A DNA stretch of 64,000 nt from Methanocella paludicola SANAE (GTDB lineage Archaea > Halobacteriota > Methanocellia > Methanocellales > Methanocellaceae), in assembly GCF_000011005.1 (NCBI RefSeq), contig NC_013665.1, forward strand, positions 2,643,501-2,707,500. Reading direction: 5' to 3'. The stretch's first letter is position 1. Each line of letters begins with the position of its first letter. Positions 36,036 through 45,819 of this stretch are shown piece after piece. Below the pieces are notes generated by a model. The model saw only the letters and a list, made by a program, of their open reading frames with translations. It was not told the DNA's origin and ran no database searches. A program made the position numbers and the translations under genes.

Positions 36036-37304
36036 TTAAAATCCACACTGGAGGTCCAGAGGGCAGCCGCCGCCGCACATGGGGAACTGGATGCAGGAAC
36101 GGCACCGCTCGGGCGCAAAGCTATGGGCACGAAGCTGCTTGGCCAGGTCGGCGTCCCACATCTTCGGGAACTCGTCCGTGAGGGCGTTTCCCAGGGGCTT
36201 AAAGTATGACTGGCAGGGCAGCACGCTCCCGTCGGGCTCCACGGCCAGCGTGAGGCGGGCCGCCGAGCAGGACTTGATGCCCAGGCCCATCTCTATAGGG
36301 TTGAGCTTATGGTATTTCGTGGGCGTGTACCAGATGAACTCCATGCCAAGGGCGTTGGACTGGTTGATGATGTCGGGCAGCAGGCCTTTTAATTCTTCGG
36401 GCGTCAGGCCTTCGGCCTCGGTCCCCTTGCCCGCCCGTATGACGGCGTTGATGCCGAACTTGCGCACGCCCAGCGAATGCAGGAACGGCACAAGGCCATT
36501 GATGGTCCCGACGTTGTCCCGGGTGATGGTGGTGTTCGTGGTCGTGTAGAGCTCCCGGACGCAGTTCTTTATCCCCACGACCGTGTCCTCGAACGACGAG
36601 GCGCCGCACATCTTGTTGTGGACGGCCGGGTCGGGGGACTCGATGGTGATCTGGACGTAGTCCAGGCCGGCCTTGTTGAGCGATGCGACCCGCTCTTTCG
36701 TGAGCAGGCGGCCGTTCGTGATCAACCCGGTCACGATGTCCAGGCTCTCCGCGTAGGCGATCAGCTCCTCCAGGTCGTCCCTGAGCAGGGACTCGCCGCC
36801 GGTGAACACGACGTTGGGCACGTCGAATTCCACGGCCTTCTTTATGACCTTCTTCCACTCGTCGGTGGTGAGCTCCTTCGTCTGCCTGGGCCCTCCGGCG
36901 TAGCAGTGAGAGCAGTTGTTGTTACAGCGATAGGTAAGTGCCAGGTCGATGCGGATGGGGGACTTCATGAGGCCGTACTGGGGCTCCTTTAATTTTACGT
37001 CGAAGCACGTGAAGGGGCAGGCGTTGCCCTCCGTGACGCCCCAGATGATGGACTGGAGGCGGTCGTAGTCCTGTTCCGCGCGCTTCTTGCCCACCTTATA
37101 CTTGAGCATCATCTGCAGCACGACGGCGTCCCTGACGCTGCCGACCAGCGGCTTCTTTTTCGAGTACCGGATGTAGCGCTTCACGTATTCCACGCCGATG
37201 CGGTCCAGGTACAGGATCTGGGACGCGTTGATGATCAGCATGCCGGTGCCGTCGTTCTCCACCCGCAGGTGGAGCCGGGTATTATCGATCCTTGCCTTGA
37301 TCAT
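36036..37304 (-). CDS. Radical SAM/SPASM-like enzyme, candidate peptide modifier
   Basis: A 422-residue protein. Residues 1-100 look like a PqqD/RiPP-recognition fold (GMLIINASQILYLDRIGVEY, then helices to RAEQDYDRL). A CPFTC pair follows near 96-100, then the radical SAM cluster motif CNNNCSHC (Cys127, 131, 134) with GGE of the SAM-binding loop. The C-terminal auxiliary-cluster region has CSAARLTLAVEPDGSVLPCQ and CRSCIQFPMCGGGCPLDLQC, as in SPASM-type peptide-modifying enzymes. Its ATG overlaps the stop of the DUF2207-like gene by 4 nt, and that gene ends in a ten-cysteine tail, the natural candidate substrate. A longer Arg-rich reading from 37385 is rejected because it overlaps the neighbour's tail. 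Confidence 0.86.
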   Translation of the reverse strand: MIKARIDNTRLHLRVENDGTGMLIINASQILYLDRIGVEYVKRYIRYSKKKPLVGSVRDAVVLQMMLKYKVGKKRAEQDYDRLQSIIWGVTEGNACPFTCFDVKLKEPQYGLMKSPIRIDLALTYRCNNNCSHCYAGGPRQTKELTTDEWKKVIKKAVEFDVPNVVFTGGESLLRDDLEELIAYAESLDIVTGLITNGRLLTKERVASLNKAGLDYVQITIESPDPAVHNKMCGASSFEDTVVGIKNCVRELYTTTNTTITRDNVGTINGLVPFLHSLGVRKFGINAVIRAGKGTEAEGLTPEELKGLLPDIINQSNALGMEFIWYTPTKYHKLNPIEMGLGIKSCSAARLTLAVEPDGSVLPCQSYFKPLGNALTDEFPKMWDADLAKQLRAHSFAPERCRSCIQFPMCGGGCPLDLQCGF

Positions 37305-38995
37305 GTGCAGCCACCTCCTCCGCCGGCGCACGCGCAGGCACAGGCGCAGGATACGCACGCGCATGCGCACGAGACGCAGGCGCATGAGCCTCCCCCGCCC
37401 GAGTGCCCGCGTGCTGACGCAGGCGCGTACGACGTGGCAGCCGGCGGGGCGTTAGCCTCGTTCCTCACTCCCAGGAACTTCTCCACGCCTCCCACGACTC
37501 CGGCCGCGGTCGCTTCGACCGAGTTGGAGATGGAATTGGCGAAGCTCTCGACAGTGGTCGTGGTCCTGTTCGTCGGGGCCTGCGGGGCACCAGCCTGGGG
37601 GGTGCCGGTCTGAGGAGCGCCGGTCTGAGGAGCGCCGGTCGTGGGCGTACCATGCGTGCCCCAGTGGTGTGGCAGCCCGAAGTAATAGGGATACCACCAG
37701 TAATAGTTCGGCACGAACACGGTGTTGCTGCCCGGCGCGTCCGACACGTACTCCTTCGTCTTTTTCGTGAACTGCTCGTCAGCCATGAGCCAGAACATGT
37801 TCGTGTCGTACTTCTCCAGCTTCAGCTCGGGCGTGTCCACGGCCTTGATCTCGGCCCACGCCTCCTCGATCTTCGAGCGGTAGTAGTCTTCGGTGTCTTT
37901 ACGGCAGTAGGGCCGGGTCTTGTCGACCACGCGCCGTGCCAGCACCTTGAAGCATTCCAGCAGCTTATCCTCGTCGAGCTTATCGTCCACGATGGCGTCC
38001 ATGTAGAGCTTCTCATAATAGTTGAGGCCCTTTCGTGACACGGGCTCCAGCCGGATGGGGTCGGTGCCGAGGAGCTTGATGTTGCCCTTTTTCATGAGCC
38101 CGAACATGATCATGGTGAGCACGCGCTTCGGGTCTATGCGGAGCAGCGTGGCGGCCTCGACCGGGTCGAGGTTCTTGTTCACGCCGATGCCGTCCATGCT
38201 GACCACCGGCGAGTCGTAGGGCTTCCGCAGCAGCGAGCCCCCGATGCTGCCGATGATCATGATGAATATGAACGCCACGAAGATCATCGGGCAGGAGCAG
38301 GAGAACAGCGACTCCACGAGCCCCAGGCCGATGCCCGTTCCAGGGGTATAGCCGCCCTGCTTGTCGATGACTGCGCCGGAGGCCATGTAGCTGTCGGGGA
38401 AGCTCACGGCCACCTTGAACTGCTGGTTGGGCGAGAGGTCCTTGCTCTCGAAGTAGACCCATGTGCGGTTGTCCTCCACGCCGATATTATCGTACAGCTT
38501 GCTCCCGGTATACACCTGGTCTTTGGGCACGTTGCCGGGCAGGTAGAACTTGACCTGCGTGTCCGTGATGTCCATGTCCCACCAGGGCGGGATGAACTCC
38601 ACTATGTCATAGCCGGCCGTATCGGCCTTATAAACGAACCCGGGCAGGTTCGAGTTGATGCGCAGGTAAACGTTATCGCCGGGGTTGAGGTTCCACCCCT
38701 GCGTCTTGATCTGGCCGCCGCTGACGGTAAAGGCGTGCCTGTTGCCGCTGCCGTCGACCACCTCCTCCACCTGCATGCTCGATACGGTCACGGGTATCCA
38801 GACCTCGTTCCAGACCCCCTTAACGATGGTCGCATTGACCTCGTACGTCATGTACACGGAGCCCGAGGGGTCGATGTCGAGCACGACGTGCTGGTCGCTG
38901 ACCTGCCACCGGTACGTCTCCTGCGCATGAGCGTACGGCATCAGGGATAATGAAATGAGAACGATGAGCAGTAAACTTATGATTCTCCTGTGCAT
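37301..38995 (-). CDS. DUF2207-like membrane protein with Cys/Ala/Gly-rich C-terminal tail
   Basis: A 564-residue protein. A signal peptide (ends near AHA|QE, residue 24) is followed by an outer beta-rich domain (25-220). One transmembrane segment lies about 228-252 (FVAFIFIMIIGSIGGSLL). A cytoplasmic winged-helix-like region (LDPVEAATLLRIDPKRVLTM and on) and a GAPQ/GTPQ tandem linker follow. The last 29 residues contain ten cysteines in alternating CAC and CACAC units, then GGGGGCT. The tail is predicted cytoplasmic, where the co-encoded radical SAM enzyme acts, so it may be a built-in substrate for thioether or metal-cluster formation; this is inference. ATG 38995 is preferred over GTG 39001. 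Confidence 0.8.
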   Translation of the reverse strand: MHRRIISLLLIVLISLSLMPYAHAQETYRWQVSDQHVVLDIDPSGSVYMTYEVNATIVKGVWNEVWIPVTVSSMQVEEVVDGSGNRHAFTVSGGQIKTQGWNLNPGDNVYLRINSNLPGFVYKADTAGYDIVEFIPPWWDMDITDTQVKFYLPGNVPKDQVYTGSKLYDNIGVEDNRTWVYFESKDLSPNQQFKVAVSFPDSYMASGAVIDKQGGYTPGTGIGLGLVESLFSCSCPMIFVAFIFIMIIGSIGGSLLRKPYDSPVVSMDGIGVNKNLDPVEAATLLRIDPKRVLTMIMFGLMKKGNIKLLGTDPIRLEPVSRKGLNYYEKLYMDAIVDDKLDEDKLLECFKVLARRVVDKTRPYCRKDTEDYYRSKIEEAWAEIKAVDTPELKLEKYDTNMFWLMADEQFTKKTKEYVSDAPGSNTVFVPNYYWWYPYYFGLPHHWGTHGTPTTGAPQTGAPQTGTPQAGAPQAPTNRTTTTVESFANSISNSVEATAAGVVGGVEKFLGVRNEANAPPAATSYAPASARGHSGGGGSCACVSCACACVSCACACACAGGGGGCT

Positions 38996-38997
38996 GA

Positions 38998-39450
38998 TCA
39001 CACCTTCGCCGCCTTCTCGTCCTGCTCAAAGGGGATGAGCGTGGGGAACGAGTACGTGGTGATGCCGCTCGCCTCTGTGGCGTCCAGGTTGATGTCACAG
39101 ATGCCCTTCTTCGCCATCCTGTCCAGGACTTTCTCGGCCTCCGACGACTCGATGCCGACGTTGATGAGGTCGGCGACAGTGACGGTGCCGTTGTTCTTTT
39201 TCGCCAGCGTGAGCACCTGCCGCTCCATATTATGGTAGCGGGCGTCGCCCATCTTCTCCTGCCGGGTGGCCGTGTAGGCCATGTAGATGAAAAAAGCCCC
39301 TGCGGCCAGCATGATGAGCCCTACGAGCCCGGTCGCCAGCGACCACGAGCGGCCTGCGATGACCGCCATGAGCGTGATGAACAACACGAACAGGCTTACC
39401 AGTATGACGGCGGACCCGGCGATGGCGGGCAGGACGGCCTTAGAATTCAT
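38998..39450 (-). CDS. Two-helix membrane protein with winged-helix domain
   Basis: A 150-residue protein. Two transmembrane helices (about 8-33 and 38-60) precede a soluble region (70-150) that reads as a winged helix (VLTLAKKNNGTVTVADLINVGI, then SSEAEKVLDRMAKKG), similar to the cytoplasmic region of the next gene product. It is the first gene of a three-gene unit; its stop lies 2 nt before the chosen start of the DUF2207-like gene. Partner or sensor of that protein is a reasonable guess; no enzymatic motif is visible. Confidence 0.7.
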   Translation of the reverse strand: MNSKAVLPAIAGSAVILVSLFVLFITLMAVIAGRSWSLATGLVGLIMLAAGAFFIYMAYTATRQEKMGDARYHNMERQVLTLAKKNNGTVTVADLINVGIESSEAEKVLDRMAKKGICDINLDATEASGITTYSFPTLIPFEQDEKAAKV

Positions 39451-42312: not shown

Positions 42313-42903
42313 TCAGTAGCCGGGCACCAGATCGTTCCCTTTTTTGTAGTAGGGCAGGTAGACGAGCTTCCTGGAAGTGACCTGTAGACCGTAGTCGAGC
42401 TGCTGCAGCGTGCCGGGTTTCTCGGCCTCGATGGTGACGAAGAGGAAGTCGGCCATGCCGTCGGCCATTTCCGCCTCAACGGTGCAGGGCTCTCTTTTTA
42501 CGGTGGGGTCGAGCCTGTCCGGCGAGTACTTCGGCGGCGTCAGCGTGAGCTTCTCCGCCAGCTCCTTATAGCGGGATGTCTCCGTCTCGAACGCGGGCAG
42601 GAACATGTCCATGTGGCCGGCGTTCGAATTGCCGCTCAGGAAGCCGGCGAACCGGGAGATCGTCCCGCCTTCCACCCTCTGGCTGTTGATGCGGAAGTCG
42701 GTGCCGAGCTTCCAGAAGGGCAGGTAGACCTTCTCGCCCTCTGGCGGCTTTGCGAAGGCTCCAGCCTCGTACTCGATGATGGTGACCTTGCCGTCCCTGG
42801 CGTGCAGGGTGCCGCAGCCCTGACACAGGAACACCGTATCGTGGTCCTTGCCGTACATCGGGTTCTTGCAGCCCGGGCATACGATGGGCATGATCTTCGT
42901 CAT
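42313..42903 (-). CDS. Zinc-ribbon protein of the SPFH cluster
   Basis: A 196-residue soluble protein with one N-terminal zinc ribbon (Cys9/12 and Cys27/30) and a domain containing VYLPFWKLGTDF and LVYLPYYKKGND, a Y/F-P-F/Y-W-K pattern shared with the next two gene products. Unlike those it has no clear transmembrane helix. It is the last gene of a five-gene minus-strand operon and overlaps its neighbour by 4 nt (ATGA). No enzyme motif is seen. Confidence 0.75.
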   Translation of the reverse strand: MTKIMPIVCPGCKNPMYGKDHDTVFLCQGCGTLHARDGKVTIIEYEAGAFAKPPEGEKVYLPFWKLGTDFRINSQRVEGGTISRFAGFLSGNSNAGHMDMFLPAFETETSRYKELAEKLTLTPPKYSPDRLDPTVKREPCTVEAEMADGMADFLFVTIEAEKPGTLQQLDYGLQVTSRKLVYLPYYKKGNDLVPGY

Positions 42904-43937
42904 ATGTTACCTCCCCTCCCGAAGTTCATGGGGCCGCCGGTGCTCATGGCATTGATCAGTTCCTTTTCGACGCCGTCGCCCTTCCCGAGGCCCAGGTTGG
43001 TGTTGAAGCCCCCCTTCAGCGTGCCGGTGGTCACTTCAGAGCCGTACCGGAAGAACCGGTAGCTTACAAAAGCGATCAGCAGGCATATGATGATGGCGAT
43101 GACGCCCGCGGCGACGCCTTCCTCGTTCCCCAGGTAGCCCATGGCTATGATGCCCAGCGCGCTGCCGTAGCCGCCGGCGAGCATGCCCAGCGACATGGCG
43201 ATGGTCCGCATGAGCGTGTCGCCCGGCGCCCTGCCCGCGAGCACCTTGCCCGTGATGCCGTCGATGGTGCAGAAGTACATGCGGCCATTATACTTGTACC
43301 GCACGACCCAGATGGGGTAGAATACCAGCGCCAGGCCCCGGGGGAAGATGTGCATTTTGACGAACGTCCTGTGGGGCACTCCCGCCGAGGATATGGCCGT
43401 CTGCTCGATGGATGCCAGGCCCTTTGCGCGAGCATCAGTGGGCGACGTGGTCACCTCGAACGTGGGGATGCTGCCCTCGTCGTGGAGCCCGGCCGTGCCG
43501 TTGAGGCCGCTCAGGTGCTCCACGCCGATATCGCCCACGTCACAGGCGATCTCGTTCCAGTCGAAGTCGGACGCCACCATCTTTTCCATGGGCACCCGCT
43601 CAGTACGCTTATTCCTCTGCACCTGCCGGTACCCGCACACCCACCCGGCAGCCCTGGCATGGAGCTTCCAGAATGGCGCGTAAATGGGATAACATTCGGA
43701 GATCTCAGCCTTGCCCTTGAGGTCCCGGGCCTTCAGGCCTCCGCCCATCCAGCTCCTCGCGGCGGCGACAGCCCTGGCCTCGTCCAGGTTATTCTTATAG
43801 GTGATCTTCTCCACGCCGTCGTCGCCCTCGATGGCCAGGAGCGCGCTGCAGTACGGGCACGAGGTGGTCGCAGCCCCCTCGTCCAGCGACAGCGCTCCGC
43901 CGCAGTGGGGGCAGTTCAGCGATAGCGATATTCCCAT
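42900..43937 (-). CDS. Zinc-ribbon membrane protein of the SPFH cluster
   Basis: A 345-residue protein. A zinc ribbon (Cys9/12, Cys27/30) is followed by a soluble domain with CYPIYAPFWKLHARAAG and LVFYPIWVVRYKYNGRMYF. Two transmembrane helices (about 240-290) and a Gly-rich tail end it. The repeated YPIW-x-VxYKYxGR-x2-F pattern is also in the adjacent gene, so the two are distant paralogues. GGAGG upstream supports the ATG. It resembles YdjG-type bacterial proteins in layout; function unknown. Confidence 0.75.
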   Translation of the reverse strand: MGISLSLNCPHCGGALSLDEGAATTSCPYCSALLAIEGDDGVEKITYKNNLDEARAVAAARSWMGGGLKARDLKGKAEISECYPIYAPFWKLHARAAGWVCGYRQVQRNKRTERVPMEKMVASDFDWNEIACDVGDIGVEHLSGLNGTAGLHDEGSIPTFEVTTSPTDARAKGLASIEQTAISSAGVPHRTFVKMHIFPRGLALVFYPIWVVRYKYNGRMYFCTIDGITGKVLAGRAPGDTLMRTIAMSLGMLAGGYGSALGIIAMGYLGNEEGVAAGVIAIIICLLIAFVSYRFFRYGSEVTTGTLKGGFNTNLGLGKGDGVEKELINAMSTGGPMNFGRGGNI

Positions 43938-43938
43938 G

Positions 43939-44676
43939 TCAGAACCTCCTCACGATGGTGTAGGCGGCCACGAACACGACGGGCAGGGTGACGACGGCTG
44001 CCAGCAGGCCGCAGCCCGCCAGGAGCGTCAGGAACCCCTCGATAAAGAATACGATAAATGCGGCGGCGGCCAGCGCGAAATACGGTGCCGACGAGCGGCC
44101 CGGATAGTCGGCGGCGAATACCTCGCCGGAGGAGCCGTCGATGACCGCGTCGTAGTCCCGCCCGCTGAACTTATAGCTCACGGCCCATATGGGGAAATAG
44201 ACCAGCGCCTGCTCTTTCGGCTCGCCCGGCAGGCGGGGCAGGTATGCCGTCATATCCATGTCCGGCTTCAGTAGCTCAACGTCGACCTTGTAGTTCTGGT
44301 CGAAGACCTTGATGTCGCCGGCGGGCACCTTCAGGCTATGGAGGCCGGGAAGTGTCGTGGACCGGGCGGGCTCGAGCATGACCTTCTCCTGGCCGTTCAC
44401 CGTGCGCTTAAAAAGATAGACGGGGAAGTACTGCTGCCGGATGTTCGTCACCTGCGCCAGCCGGTCCAGGTCCTTTGCCCTCTCCGGTGCGGCCGCCCAG
44501 CGCTTGAACGTGCCCTCGGCGCCCGACCGGTCGAGGAAGTAGGGCATGATATAGAAGAACCCTGCCCCGCTCCGGTCGATGTAGAGCTGCGTGTCGCAGT
44601 AGCCGCACTTGACGAACCGGTCGCCCGGCTCGAAGCCGATGGGCGCGCCGCACTTCGTGCACTTGATCTCGGCCAT
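43939..44676 (-). CDS. Zinc-ribbon membrane protein of the SPFH cluster
   Basis: A 245-residue protein with an N-terminal zinc ribbon (Cys6/9, Cys24/27) and a soluble domain with FPVYLFKRTV and VYFPIWAVSYKFSGRDYDAVID. Two C-terminal transmembrane helices (about 200-242) follow. It is a shorter relative of its neighbour at 42900-43937. The stop lies 1 nt before the neighbour's ATG and its ATG 3 nt after the SPFH gene stop, so the operon is tightly packed. Confidence 0.75.
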   Translation of the reverse strand: MAEIKCTKCGAPIGFEPGDRFVKCGYCDTQLYIDRSGAGFFYIMPYFLDRSGAEGTFKRWAAAPERAKDLDRLAQVTNIRQQYFPVYLFKRTVNGQEKVMLEPARSTTLPGLHSLKVPAGDIKVFDQNYKVDVELLKPDMDMTAYLPRLPGEPKEQALVYFPIWAVSYKFSGRDYDAVIDGSSGEVFAADYPGRSSAPYFALAAAAFIVFFIEGFLTLLAGCGLLAAVVTLPVVFVAAYTIVRRF

Positions 44677-44679
44677 CGC

Positions 44680-45819
44680 TTATCCTGTCGGGTTGCCGCA
44701 GCTCGGACAGAATTTAGTCCCTGGCTCCAGTTTAGCGTTACACTTCGCACACGTCGCCTGCTGCGATGCGCCGCAAGAGGGGCAGAACTTTGCACCCGCG
44801 GGCAATGACGCACCGCACTTCACGCAGGCCGTTCCCTGGGGTGCGCCGCACGCCGGGCAGAACTTCGCGCCCTGGGGGACGCTGGCGCCGCACTTCACGC
44901 ACGGGGCCCCTGCCGGAGGCGGGGACGGAGGCGTCGCTACGACGGGGGGCTGCTGCCCTCCCGTCTGGCCCATCTGGTTCATCATCATGTAGCCCATGCC
45001 GATGCCGGCGCCGACTCCTACTCCTGCCCCGGCGGCCCCGCCGGAGGGATTGACCGCCGCCTCGCGCATCGCCTGGCCGGTCTGGTATCCCATGTAGTTC
45101 GTGCCCAGCACGGACATGGACGCTCTCGTGTCCACGGCCTTCTGCACCTCTTCGGGCAGGTTAATGTAAAGCCCCGAGATCTTGTCGATGACGATGCCGT
45201 AGGGGGCGAAGTCCGTCTTCGAGTCCTCTAAGAATATTTGCTCGATGTTCTTGAGGTTCGCGGCCAGGTTCACGACGCCCATGCCCTTTTCCTTGAGCTT
45301 GCCCAGGACGTTGTACATCGAGGTGACGACCTGCTCCTTGATGCGCTCCTCCACCTCGGGCGCCCTCGTGAGGCTCAGCGTGCCCACGAAGTAGTTGATG
45401 AAGTTCGAGGGCTCGGAGACCTTATACCGGAACTCGCCGAACAGGCTGAGCTTCACTAGCTGGAAGGTCTTGTCCTCGAACACGTAGGGCTGCTTGCTGC
45501 CGAACTTGCCGTCGAATACTTTTTTCTGTAAGTAGTATACTTCTGCCTGCTGCTGGACGCCGCTCAGGCGCTGCACGATCTTGCCCACGATGGGCGCGTT
45601 GATCGAGGTAAGCGCGTAGCGGTCCGGCCTGTCGATGTAGTCGAGCGCTTTGCCGTCCCTGAAGAAGACGGCGATCTCGTCCTCGCGCACGACGATGTTG
45701 TCGTTGAACTTGATGTTCCTCGGCACCTTCCACATGACGTTATTGCGCTTCTCGCCGTCCTCCCACAGTATTGTGGCCGCGCCGATGATGCTTCCCTTAT
45801 CGCCGGTGATGATCCCCAT
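44680..45819 (-). CDS. SPFH/YdjI-like protein with three C-terminal zinc ribbons
   Basis: A 379-residue protein. Residues 1-240 match the YdjI/virion-core-like SPFH family (ILWEDGEKRNNVMWKVPRNI, VVREDEIAVFFRDGKALDYI, then an SPFH core and a helical EEVQKAVDTRASMSVLG end). A Gly/Pro linker leads to three tandem zinc ribbons, each CVKCGASxPxGAKFCPxCG-like. Such proteins form membrane-linked scaffolds; in Bacillus the YdjGHI partners act with PspA in membrane stress. GGAGGTG lies before the ATG and the start overlaps the previous stop by one base. Confidence 0.88.
   Translation of the reverse strand: MGIITGDKGSIIGAATILWEDGEKRNNVMWKVPRNIKFNDNIVVREDEIAVFFRDGKALDYIDRPDRYALTSINAPIVGKIVQRLSGVQQQAEVYYLQKKVFDGKFGSKQPYVFEDKTFQLVKLSLFGEFRYKVSEPSNFINYFVGTLSLTRAPEVEERIKEQVVTSMYNVLGKLKEKGMGVVNLAANLKNIEQIFLEDSKTDFAPYGIVIDKISGLYINLPEEVQKAVDTRASMSVLGTNYMGYQTGQAMREAAVNPSGGAAGAGVGVGAGIGMGYMMMNQMGQTGGQQPPVVATPPSPPPAGAPCVKCGASVPQGAKFCPACGAPQGTACVKCGASLPAGAKFCPSCGASQQATCAKCNAKLEPGTKFCPSCGNPTG

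Follow-up and report, generated by a model that had tools for sequence, protein, structure and literature searches.

In Methanocella paludicola SANAE, the gene of a radical SAM/SPASM enzyme with an N-terminal RRE adjoins that of a large membrane protein ending in a ten-cysteine tail, and the enzyme very probably modifies this tail, since the pairing recurs widely and each branch of the enzyme family has its own tail sequence. That the tail of a large membrane protein, and not a free small peptide, is the candidate substrate had been proposed in a sequence-only reading of the same DNA and is supported here by the RRE and by co-occurrence. On a broader scale, we regard as plausible a widespread and undescribed class of protein modification, shared by bacteria and archaea. 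Its radical SAM enzymes, guided by an RRE and in some cases accompanied by a degenerate partner that also bears an RRE, would act on portable Cys-repeat tails (CACAC...GGGR or CHSAC) that stay on large membrane proteins, and at least once on a soluble kinase, giving a new cytoplasmic thiol-derived module.

Gene layout and conservation of the tail

The genome consists here of a single contig of 2,957,635 bases, and the window is a stretch of 64,000 nucleotides of it. Three linked minus-strand genes encode a 2-TM/winged-helix protein, a DUF2207-like protein with the Cys tail, and the radical SAM/SPASM enzyme. Their linkage had been read correctly, as had the 4-nt overlap (ATGA) in which the tail gene stops and the enzyme gene starts; this overlap was found in 4/4 Methanocellaceae. 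A longer open reading frame for the enzyme, starting at 37385, was rejected; the start is at 37304 (422 aa). The features of the locus, in window positions, are the following.

36036..37304, minus strand: radical SAM/SPASM enzyme with N-terminal RRE, 422 aa (Pfam Radical_SAM, E = 8.7e-28; SPASM, E = 1.1e-8; CX3CX2C and complete SPASM Cys pattern)
37032..37304, minus strand: predicted PqqD-like RRE domain, enzyme residues 1-91 (TfuB1 profile match, PqqD matches of relatives, AF2, Foldseek)
36903..36926, minus strand: CNNNCSHC radical SAM cluster motif, enzyme residues 127-134 (sequence motif)
36045..36269, minus strand: SPASM domain with seven Cys (346, 364, 401, 404, 410, 414, 420) (Pfam and Cys pattern)
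37301..38995, minus strand: 564-aa DUF2207-like membrane protein that carries the Cys tail at its C terminus, counted from ATG; translation may instead begin with GTG at 39001
37304..37387, minus strand: ten-cysteine tail SCACVSCACACVSCACACACAGGGGGCT, proposed substrate (sequence, conservation)
37451..37561, minus strand: residues 479-515, a conserved helical linker that precedes the tail and is proposed to act as a leader-like recognition segment (two predicted helices; similar segment in relatives, the CHSAC class, and the kinase fusion)
38228..38293, minus strand: single transmembrane helix, residues 235-256 of the tail protein (predicted; position shared with relatives)
38921..38995, minus strand: signal-peptide-like N terminus of the tail protein (sequence)
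38998..39450, minus strand: 2-TM membrane protein with winged-helix-like domain, 150 aa (alignment with Methanocellaceae and Chloroflexi cluster neighbors)

SPFH/zinc-ribbon genes at 42.3 to 45.8 kb of the window were weighed as a further component and set aside, since housekeeping-type genes separate them from the three-gene locus.

The 564-aa protein ends in SCACVSCACACVSCACACACAGGGGGCT, with 10 Cys in the last 28 residues and 4 in the other 536 (binomial P of about 2e-12 for the excess at 1.3% Cys); the sequence-only reading had the count of ten right and the length, given as 29 residues, wrong. Among four Methanocellaceae species, tail identity was 93 to 100% compared with 54 to 65% in the rest of the protein, and 9 to 15 of the 28 tail codons differed synonymously between species, with 0 to 2 differing in amino acid. 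Selection acts on the protein sequence of the tail and is strongly purifying, and a chance origin was rejected because synonymous changes accumulate and the amino acids stay while the body diverges. The tail motif was invariant across bacteria and archaea in proteins sharing just 22 to 30% identity, and Cys was the most conserved residue of the tail in the alignment of relatives.

Co-occurrence of enzyme and tail

Within the phylum of M. paludicola, the enzyme and the tail DNA pattern were found in the same 4 of 295 genomes, all Methanocellaceae, and a protein search of the whole phylum returned Methanocellaceae only. Because these four genomes represent one lineage, the search was widened to 84,980 species genomes, which were scanned for DNA encoding CACACAGGG, and 80 loci among the matches listed were taken further. 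The motif was in frame in a longer protein at 75 of these 80 loci, nearly always at the C terminus; the 5 off-frame chance matches served as controls. Among the matches listed, a relative of the enzyme was encoded in the retrieved stretch at 62 of the 75 in-frame tail loci and at none of the 5 off-frame controls, and a few of the 62 (e.g., L016 and L079) held a degenerate paralogue only. Whole-genome searches of 12 further tail genomes found the enzyme elsewhere in 11, compared with 0 of 5 control genomes for the RRE-bearing form; the genome of locus L084 has a tail and no recognized enzyme. Chance as an explanation of the tail was ruled out by the codon pattern, the contrast between in-frame and off-frame loci, and these whole-genome enzyme searches. 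Hosts of the CACACAGGG tail among the matches listed included Chloroflexi, among them Anaerolineales, Lachnospiraceae and other Clostridia, Heimdall- and other Asgard archaea, Bathyarchaeia, Thermoproteota, Thermoplasmata, Methanomassiliicoccales, Aminicenantes, Zixibacteria, and Pirellulales.

In a sample of 150 Anaerolineae genomes, core enzymes (E ≤ 1e-158) were distinguished from a sister clade (E of 1e-91 to 1e-110) where the list of hits showed a gap, the limits being chosen by eye. A CACACAGGG-type tail was present in 17/20 genomes with the core enzyme and in 0/130 others (Fisher P = 1e-19, a value that overstates independence because the sampled genomes are related). In genome G309 the enzyme gene is well placed and no tail was found; G310 and G432 are also tail-less, but with enzymes located at the edge of a contig or on a short one. 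A looser tail pattern found nothing in these three enzyme-only genomes. A tail without a recognized enzyme was present in G422, and tail and enzyme were on different contigs in G404, G363, and G395. These tail-less enzymes, the enzyme-less tails of G422 and the L084 genome, and the split contigs count against modification of the tail by the enzyme.

Genes of the sister enzyme clade adjoin those of DUF2207-like proteins with a second tail, (CHSAC)n, ending CHSACV[SG][RN]F, the Cys repeats of which were invariant in six proteins, bar one Ser/Ala position. This tail was found in 18/19 sister-enzyme genomes of the 150 Anaerolineae compared with 1/131 others, and both tail types were together in none. 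The CACAC- and CHSAC-tailed membrane-protein families align from the signal peptide to the linker and then split into unrelated tails (hhalign E = 8.5e-38). In a tree of 73 enzymes, a quick tree with SH-aLRT support only, the tail types needed 12 changes (minimum, 11; mean after shuffling, 48). As judged from these comparisons, tail types track enzyme clades across phyla, and we read this match between tail type and enzyme clade on homologous proteins as the strongest evidence for an enzyme-substrate pair. The search for Cys-tailed DUF2207 proteins beside radical SAM genes, suggested by the sequence-only reading, revealed a pairing that recurs across bacteria and archaea; its concern that enzymes might occur without a Cys-tailed partner is answered by the partners found in 17/20 and 18/19 Anaerolineae genomes.

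The enzyme, its RRE, and further components

The CNNNCSHC (CX3CX2C) motif is intact in the window enzyme, and all seven Cys of the SPASM pattern (CX9-15GX4C ... CX2CX5CX3C ... C) are present. The last SPASM Cys is absent in many Chloroflexi relatives, and CX2CX5CX3C is absent in Clostridia. No curated NCBIfam cut-off was passed by the enzyme; the nearest models include PqqE, NirJ2, AhbD, MftC, and SkfB, with similar scores, the top model being PqqE (132 bits versus a cut-off of 381) and SkfB scoring 85.7 bits versus 300. Among solved structures (PDB), the best matches were SkfB (top) and PqqE.

In a check set beforehand, the first 100 residues of the enzyme had been expected to resemble PqqD or an RRE. 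A profile of the first 115 residues of 40 enzyme relatives matched TfuB1 (E = 7.4e-8), TbiB1 (E = 0.008), and PqqD (E = 0.12). Pfam PqqD was matched individually by 27 of the 40 relatives and not by the window sequence itself. The AF2 model of the N terminus (pLDDT 84) consisted of strands followed by three helices, and its best Foldseek match was TbiB1 with leader peptide (probability 0.98), with PqqD lower and with weak E-values (0.12). Since sequence profile and predicted fold agree despite the weak Foldseek E-values, and in line with the family matches of the relatives, the expectation held: profile and model confirmed the prediction of a PqqD-type RRE at the enzyme N terminus.

A 2-TM protein with a winged-helix-like region, a zinc ribbon, or both recurs beside both tail classes (identity of 13 to 21% beyond Methanocellaceae) and is a probable third component. 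The 150-aa gene of the window is its counterpart without a zinc ribbon, which relatives add at the C terminus. A second enzyme is encoded in many Chloroflexi clusters; it is degenerate, having an RRE but lacking CX3CX2C, and is probably a recognition partner.

Body and topology of the tail-bearing protein

The window protein did not match Pfam DUF2207 (PF09972), and no match was obtained in a search of its whole genome. One CHSAC-class homologue passes the gathering cut-off (28.8 versus 24.4 bits), and the family of the window protein matched the CHSAC relatives in the profile-profile comparison (hhalign E = 8.5e-38). The name DUF2207-like therefore rests on relatives, because the window protein has no Pfam match of its own; first given from sequence, it stands by way of this link and not as a direct assignment.

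By hydropathy only, relatives have a signal-like N terminus, a beta domain of about 200 residues, a main TM helix near residue 230 to 270, and a cytoplasmic-looking C-terminal part; both the outer domain and the TM domain are conserved across phyla. In the AF2 model of the tail protein (pLDDT 71, pTM 0.42), the outer domain was good and the tail unstructured and uninformative; Foldseek indicated resemblance of the outer beta domain to ribophorin I and the N-domain of M1 aminopeptidase. Outside Clostridia, the tail follows a conserved helical linker that often ends in TNPPP. Clostridial tails are without this linker and continue into conserved AGCSxKDFYxTxLKL-like extensions, so recognition there probably involves a segment after the tail. 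A single case, from a Chloroflexi genome, is a soluble Ser/Thr kinase-AAA protein with no TM helix that carries the last 154 residues of such a membrane protein, including linker and tail; the enzyme gene then follows. This fusion supports, at the level of sequence, a tail located in the cytoplasm and a substrate module that is portable, and the cytoplasmic position proposed earlier for the window tail is consistent with both the one-TM topology and the soluble kinase bearing the same tail.

Proposed mechanism and alternatives

We propose that a signal peptide and a single helix insert the DUF2207-like protein into the membrane, a topology that would leave the beta domain outside and the Cys-tailed part in the cytoplasm. 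In the cytoplasm, the enzyme would then use its RRE to hold the conserved helical linker that immediately precedes the tail, and its radical SAM center, together with the SPASM clusters, would modify the (A/S)-Cys repeats. The likeliest chemistry would join Cys sulfur to a backbone carbon in an intramolecular thioether, as in sactipeptide/ranthipeptide enzymes, an analogy on which we favor thioether formation tentatively. Once modified, the tail would serve as a stapled or metal/redox-active module at the inner face of the membrane. Clostridia weigh against modification of the tail by the enzyme: CX2CX5CX3C is absent there, and the recognition segment must be a different one.

Action on the tail by other chemistry (epimerization, C-C crosslinks, methylthiolation, Cys removal, or another new radical change, possibly of Ala) would replace the thioether step only, and we consider it a possible but somewhat doubtful alternative. 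The absence of a passed NCBIfam cut-off and the similar scores against PqqE, NirJ, AhbD, MftC, and SkfB would fit it, as would the alternating Ala-Cys, which is, to our knowledge, unlike described sactipeptide precursors; however, the best solved-structure match is the thioether-forming SkfB, and it is Cys that is most conserved in the tail.

Modification of the tail would be mistaken altogether if the tail were an unmodified metal (Zn, Cu, or Fe-S) or redox thiol module and the enzyme modified a different protein, such as the small membrane protein with the zinc ribbon, so that enzyme and tail were linked only by shared function. The CACAC or CHSAC repeats could indeed bind metal unmodified, having 10 to 15 regularly spaced Cys and, in the CHSAC class, His, and the zinc-ribbon protein recurs in the clusters. 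This explanation is nevertheless unlikely, given that tail type follows enzyme clade across phyla, that the small protein of the window has lost its zinc ribbon yet enzyme and tail remain, and that the enzyme also adjoins the tail on an unrelated soluble kinase. Release of the modified tail by a protease as the product of an ordinary RiPP pathway with an unusually large precursor would suit the logic of leader and C-terminal core, with the linker preceding the tail, but is improbable, as no protease or exporter was seen by eye among the window neighbors or in the inspected clusters, Clostridial tails run on into a conserved extension, and the outer and TM domains are retained across phyla.

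Relation to known systems

TIGR04222 membrane proteins with C-terminal Cys-rich segments were proposed as MNIO substrates in a 2025 survey (PMC12452194). That TIGR04222 ("near_uncomplex")/MNIO (DUF692) system likewise comprises large membrane proteins with C-terminal Gly/Cys tails and a neighboring RiPP-type enzyme (PMC12452194), whereas here the enzyme is an RRE-fused radical SAM/SPASM enzyme and the CACAC/CHSAC tails are predicted to be cytoplasmic, versus periplasmic there. TIGR04222 scores were 14.5 bits for the window protein and 39.1 for a CHSAC relative, the latter marking a distant relation; both are below the cut-off of 43. No MNIO gene (PF05114) was found in the M. paludicola genome or three other Methanocellaceae. 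Involvement of MNIO was rejected because the gene was lacking in 11 of 12 genomes checked, the twelfth having it on another contig.

Sactipeptide/ranthipeptide maturases (SkfB, AlbA, SuiB, and CteB-like) share the RRE, radical SAM, and auxiliary clusters and a Cys-rich substrate; they act on a short precursor peptide with leader and core, whereas the candidate substrate here is the tail of a 564-aa one-TM protein, and the window enzyme is far below the SkfB family cut-off (85.7 versus 300 bits). PqqE/PqqD and MftC/MftB share a SPASM radical SAM enzyme and PqqD-type recognition, but here the RRE is fused and the substrate unrelated. QhpD, of quinohaemoprotein amine dehydrogenase maturation, is a radical SAM enzyme that introduces thioethers into a protein subunit rather than a secreted peptide; set side by side by description, it likewise acts on a protein, whereas the candidate here is a membrane-protein tail with repeats. 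The DUF2207 protein SMU.243, which affects stress tolerance in Streptococcus mutans, likewise has a large outer N terminus, a membrane helix, and a low-complexity cytoplasmic C terminus (PMC10457818). Its C terminus is described as Gly/Ser rich, with no Cys tail mentioned (PMC10457818), and the window protein is below the Pfam DUF2207 cut-off. In the open-licence literature, we found no paper with the tail strings or linking DUF2207 to radical SAM, and no curated model names the system; RRE-guided radical SAM modification appears here with a substrate class that seems new.

RiPP enzymes have nearly always been studied on small secreted peptides. If the proposal is true, they would extend to permanent domains of membrane proteins in bacteria and archaea alike, with Asgard archaea and gut Lachnospiraceae among the hosts. 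With the candidate substrate sequence spelled out, two natural specificity classes among homologous proteins, and a substrate module that is portable, both the chemistry and the role of DUF2207-type proteins would be open to direct testing.

Variation in tails, enzymes and neighboring genes

At the Clostridial loci (L010, L012, L026 and others), the tail does not stop at GGGR; conserved sequence resembling AGCSxKDFYxTxLKL follows and may serve as a follower segment for recognition. The SPASM CX2CX5CX3C motif is absent from the enzymes at these loci. A Chloroflexi locus (L157:990-4409) codes for a soluble Ser/Thr kinase-AAA protein. Its C-terminal 154 residues match the cytoplasmic end of the DUF2207-like proteins plus Cys tail, and the enzyme gene lies immediately downstream.

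Features at other loci and in the window
L011:4168-5316, degenerate radical SAM paralogue (RRE present, CX3CX2C absent)
L055:3677-4903, degenerate radical SAM paralogue (RRE present, CX3CX2C absent)
L143:6298-7461, coiled-coil-rich protein (~390 aa), immediately after the enzyme in a CHSAC cluster
G422:C105:54217-54363, CHSAC-type repeat, Anaerolineae genome
Window 42313-45819, SPFH/Band 7 protein bearing zinc ribbons, plus a zinc-ribbon membrane protein

The degenerate RRE-bearing paralogues adjoin either the tail gene or the active enzyme; many Chloroflexi, and some bacteria of other groups, have further examples. For the coiled-coil-rich protein of the CHSAC clusters, no Pfam family was found; counterparts occupy the same place after the enzyme at L142, L144 and L146-L148. 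In G422, which carries the CHSAC-type repeat, the sister enzyme was not recognized at the threshold used (E of 1e-91 to 1e-110, limits set by eye).

The zinc-ribbon and SPFH genes of the window, ~3 kb away from the trio, recall the pspA-ydjGHI membrane-stress operon of B. subtilis (PMC8581546).
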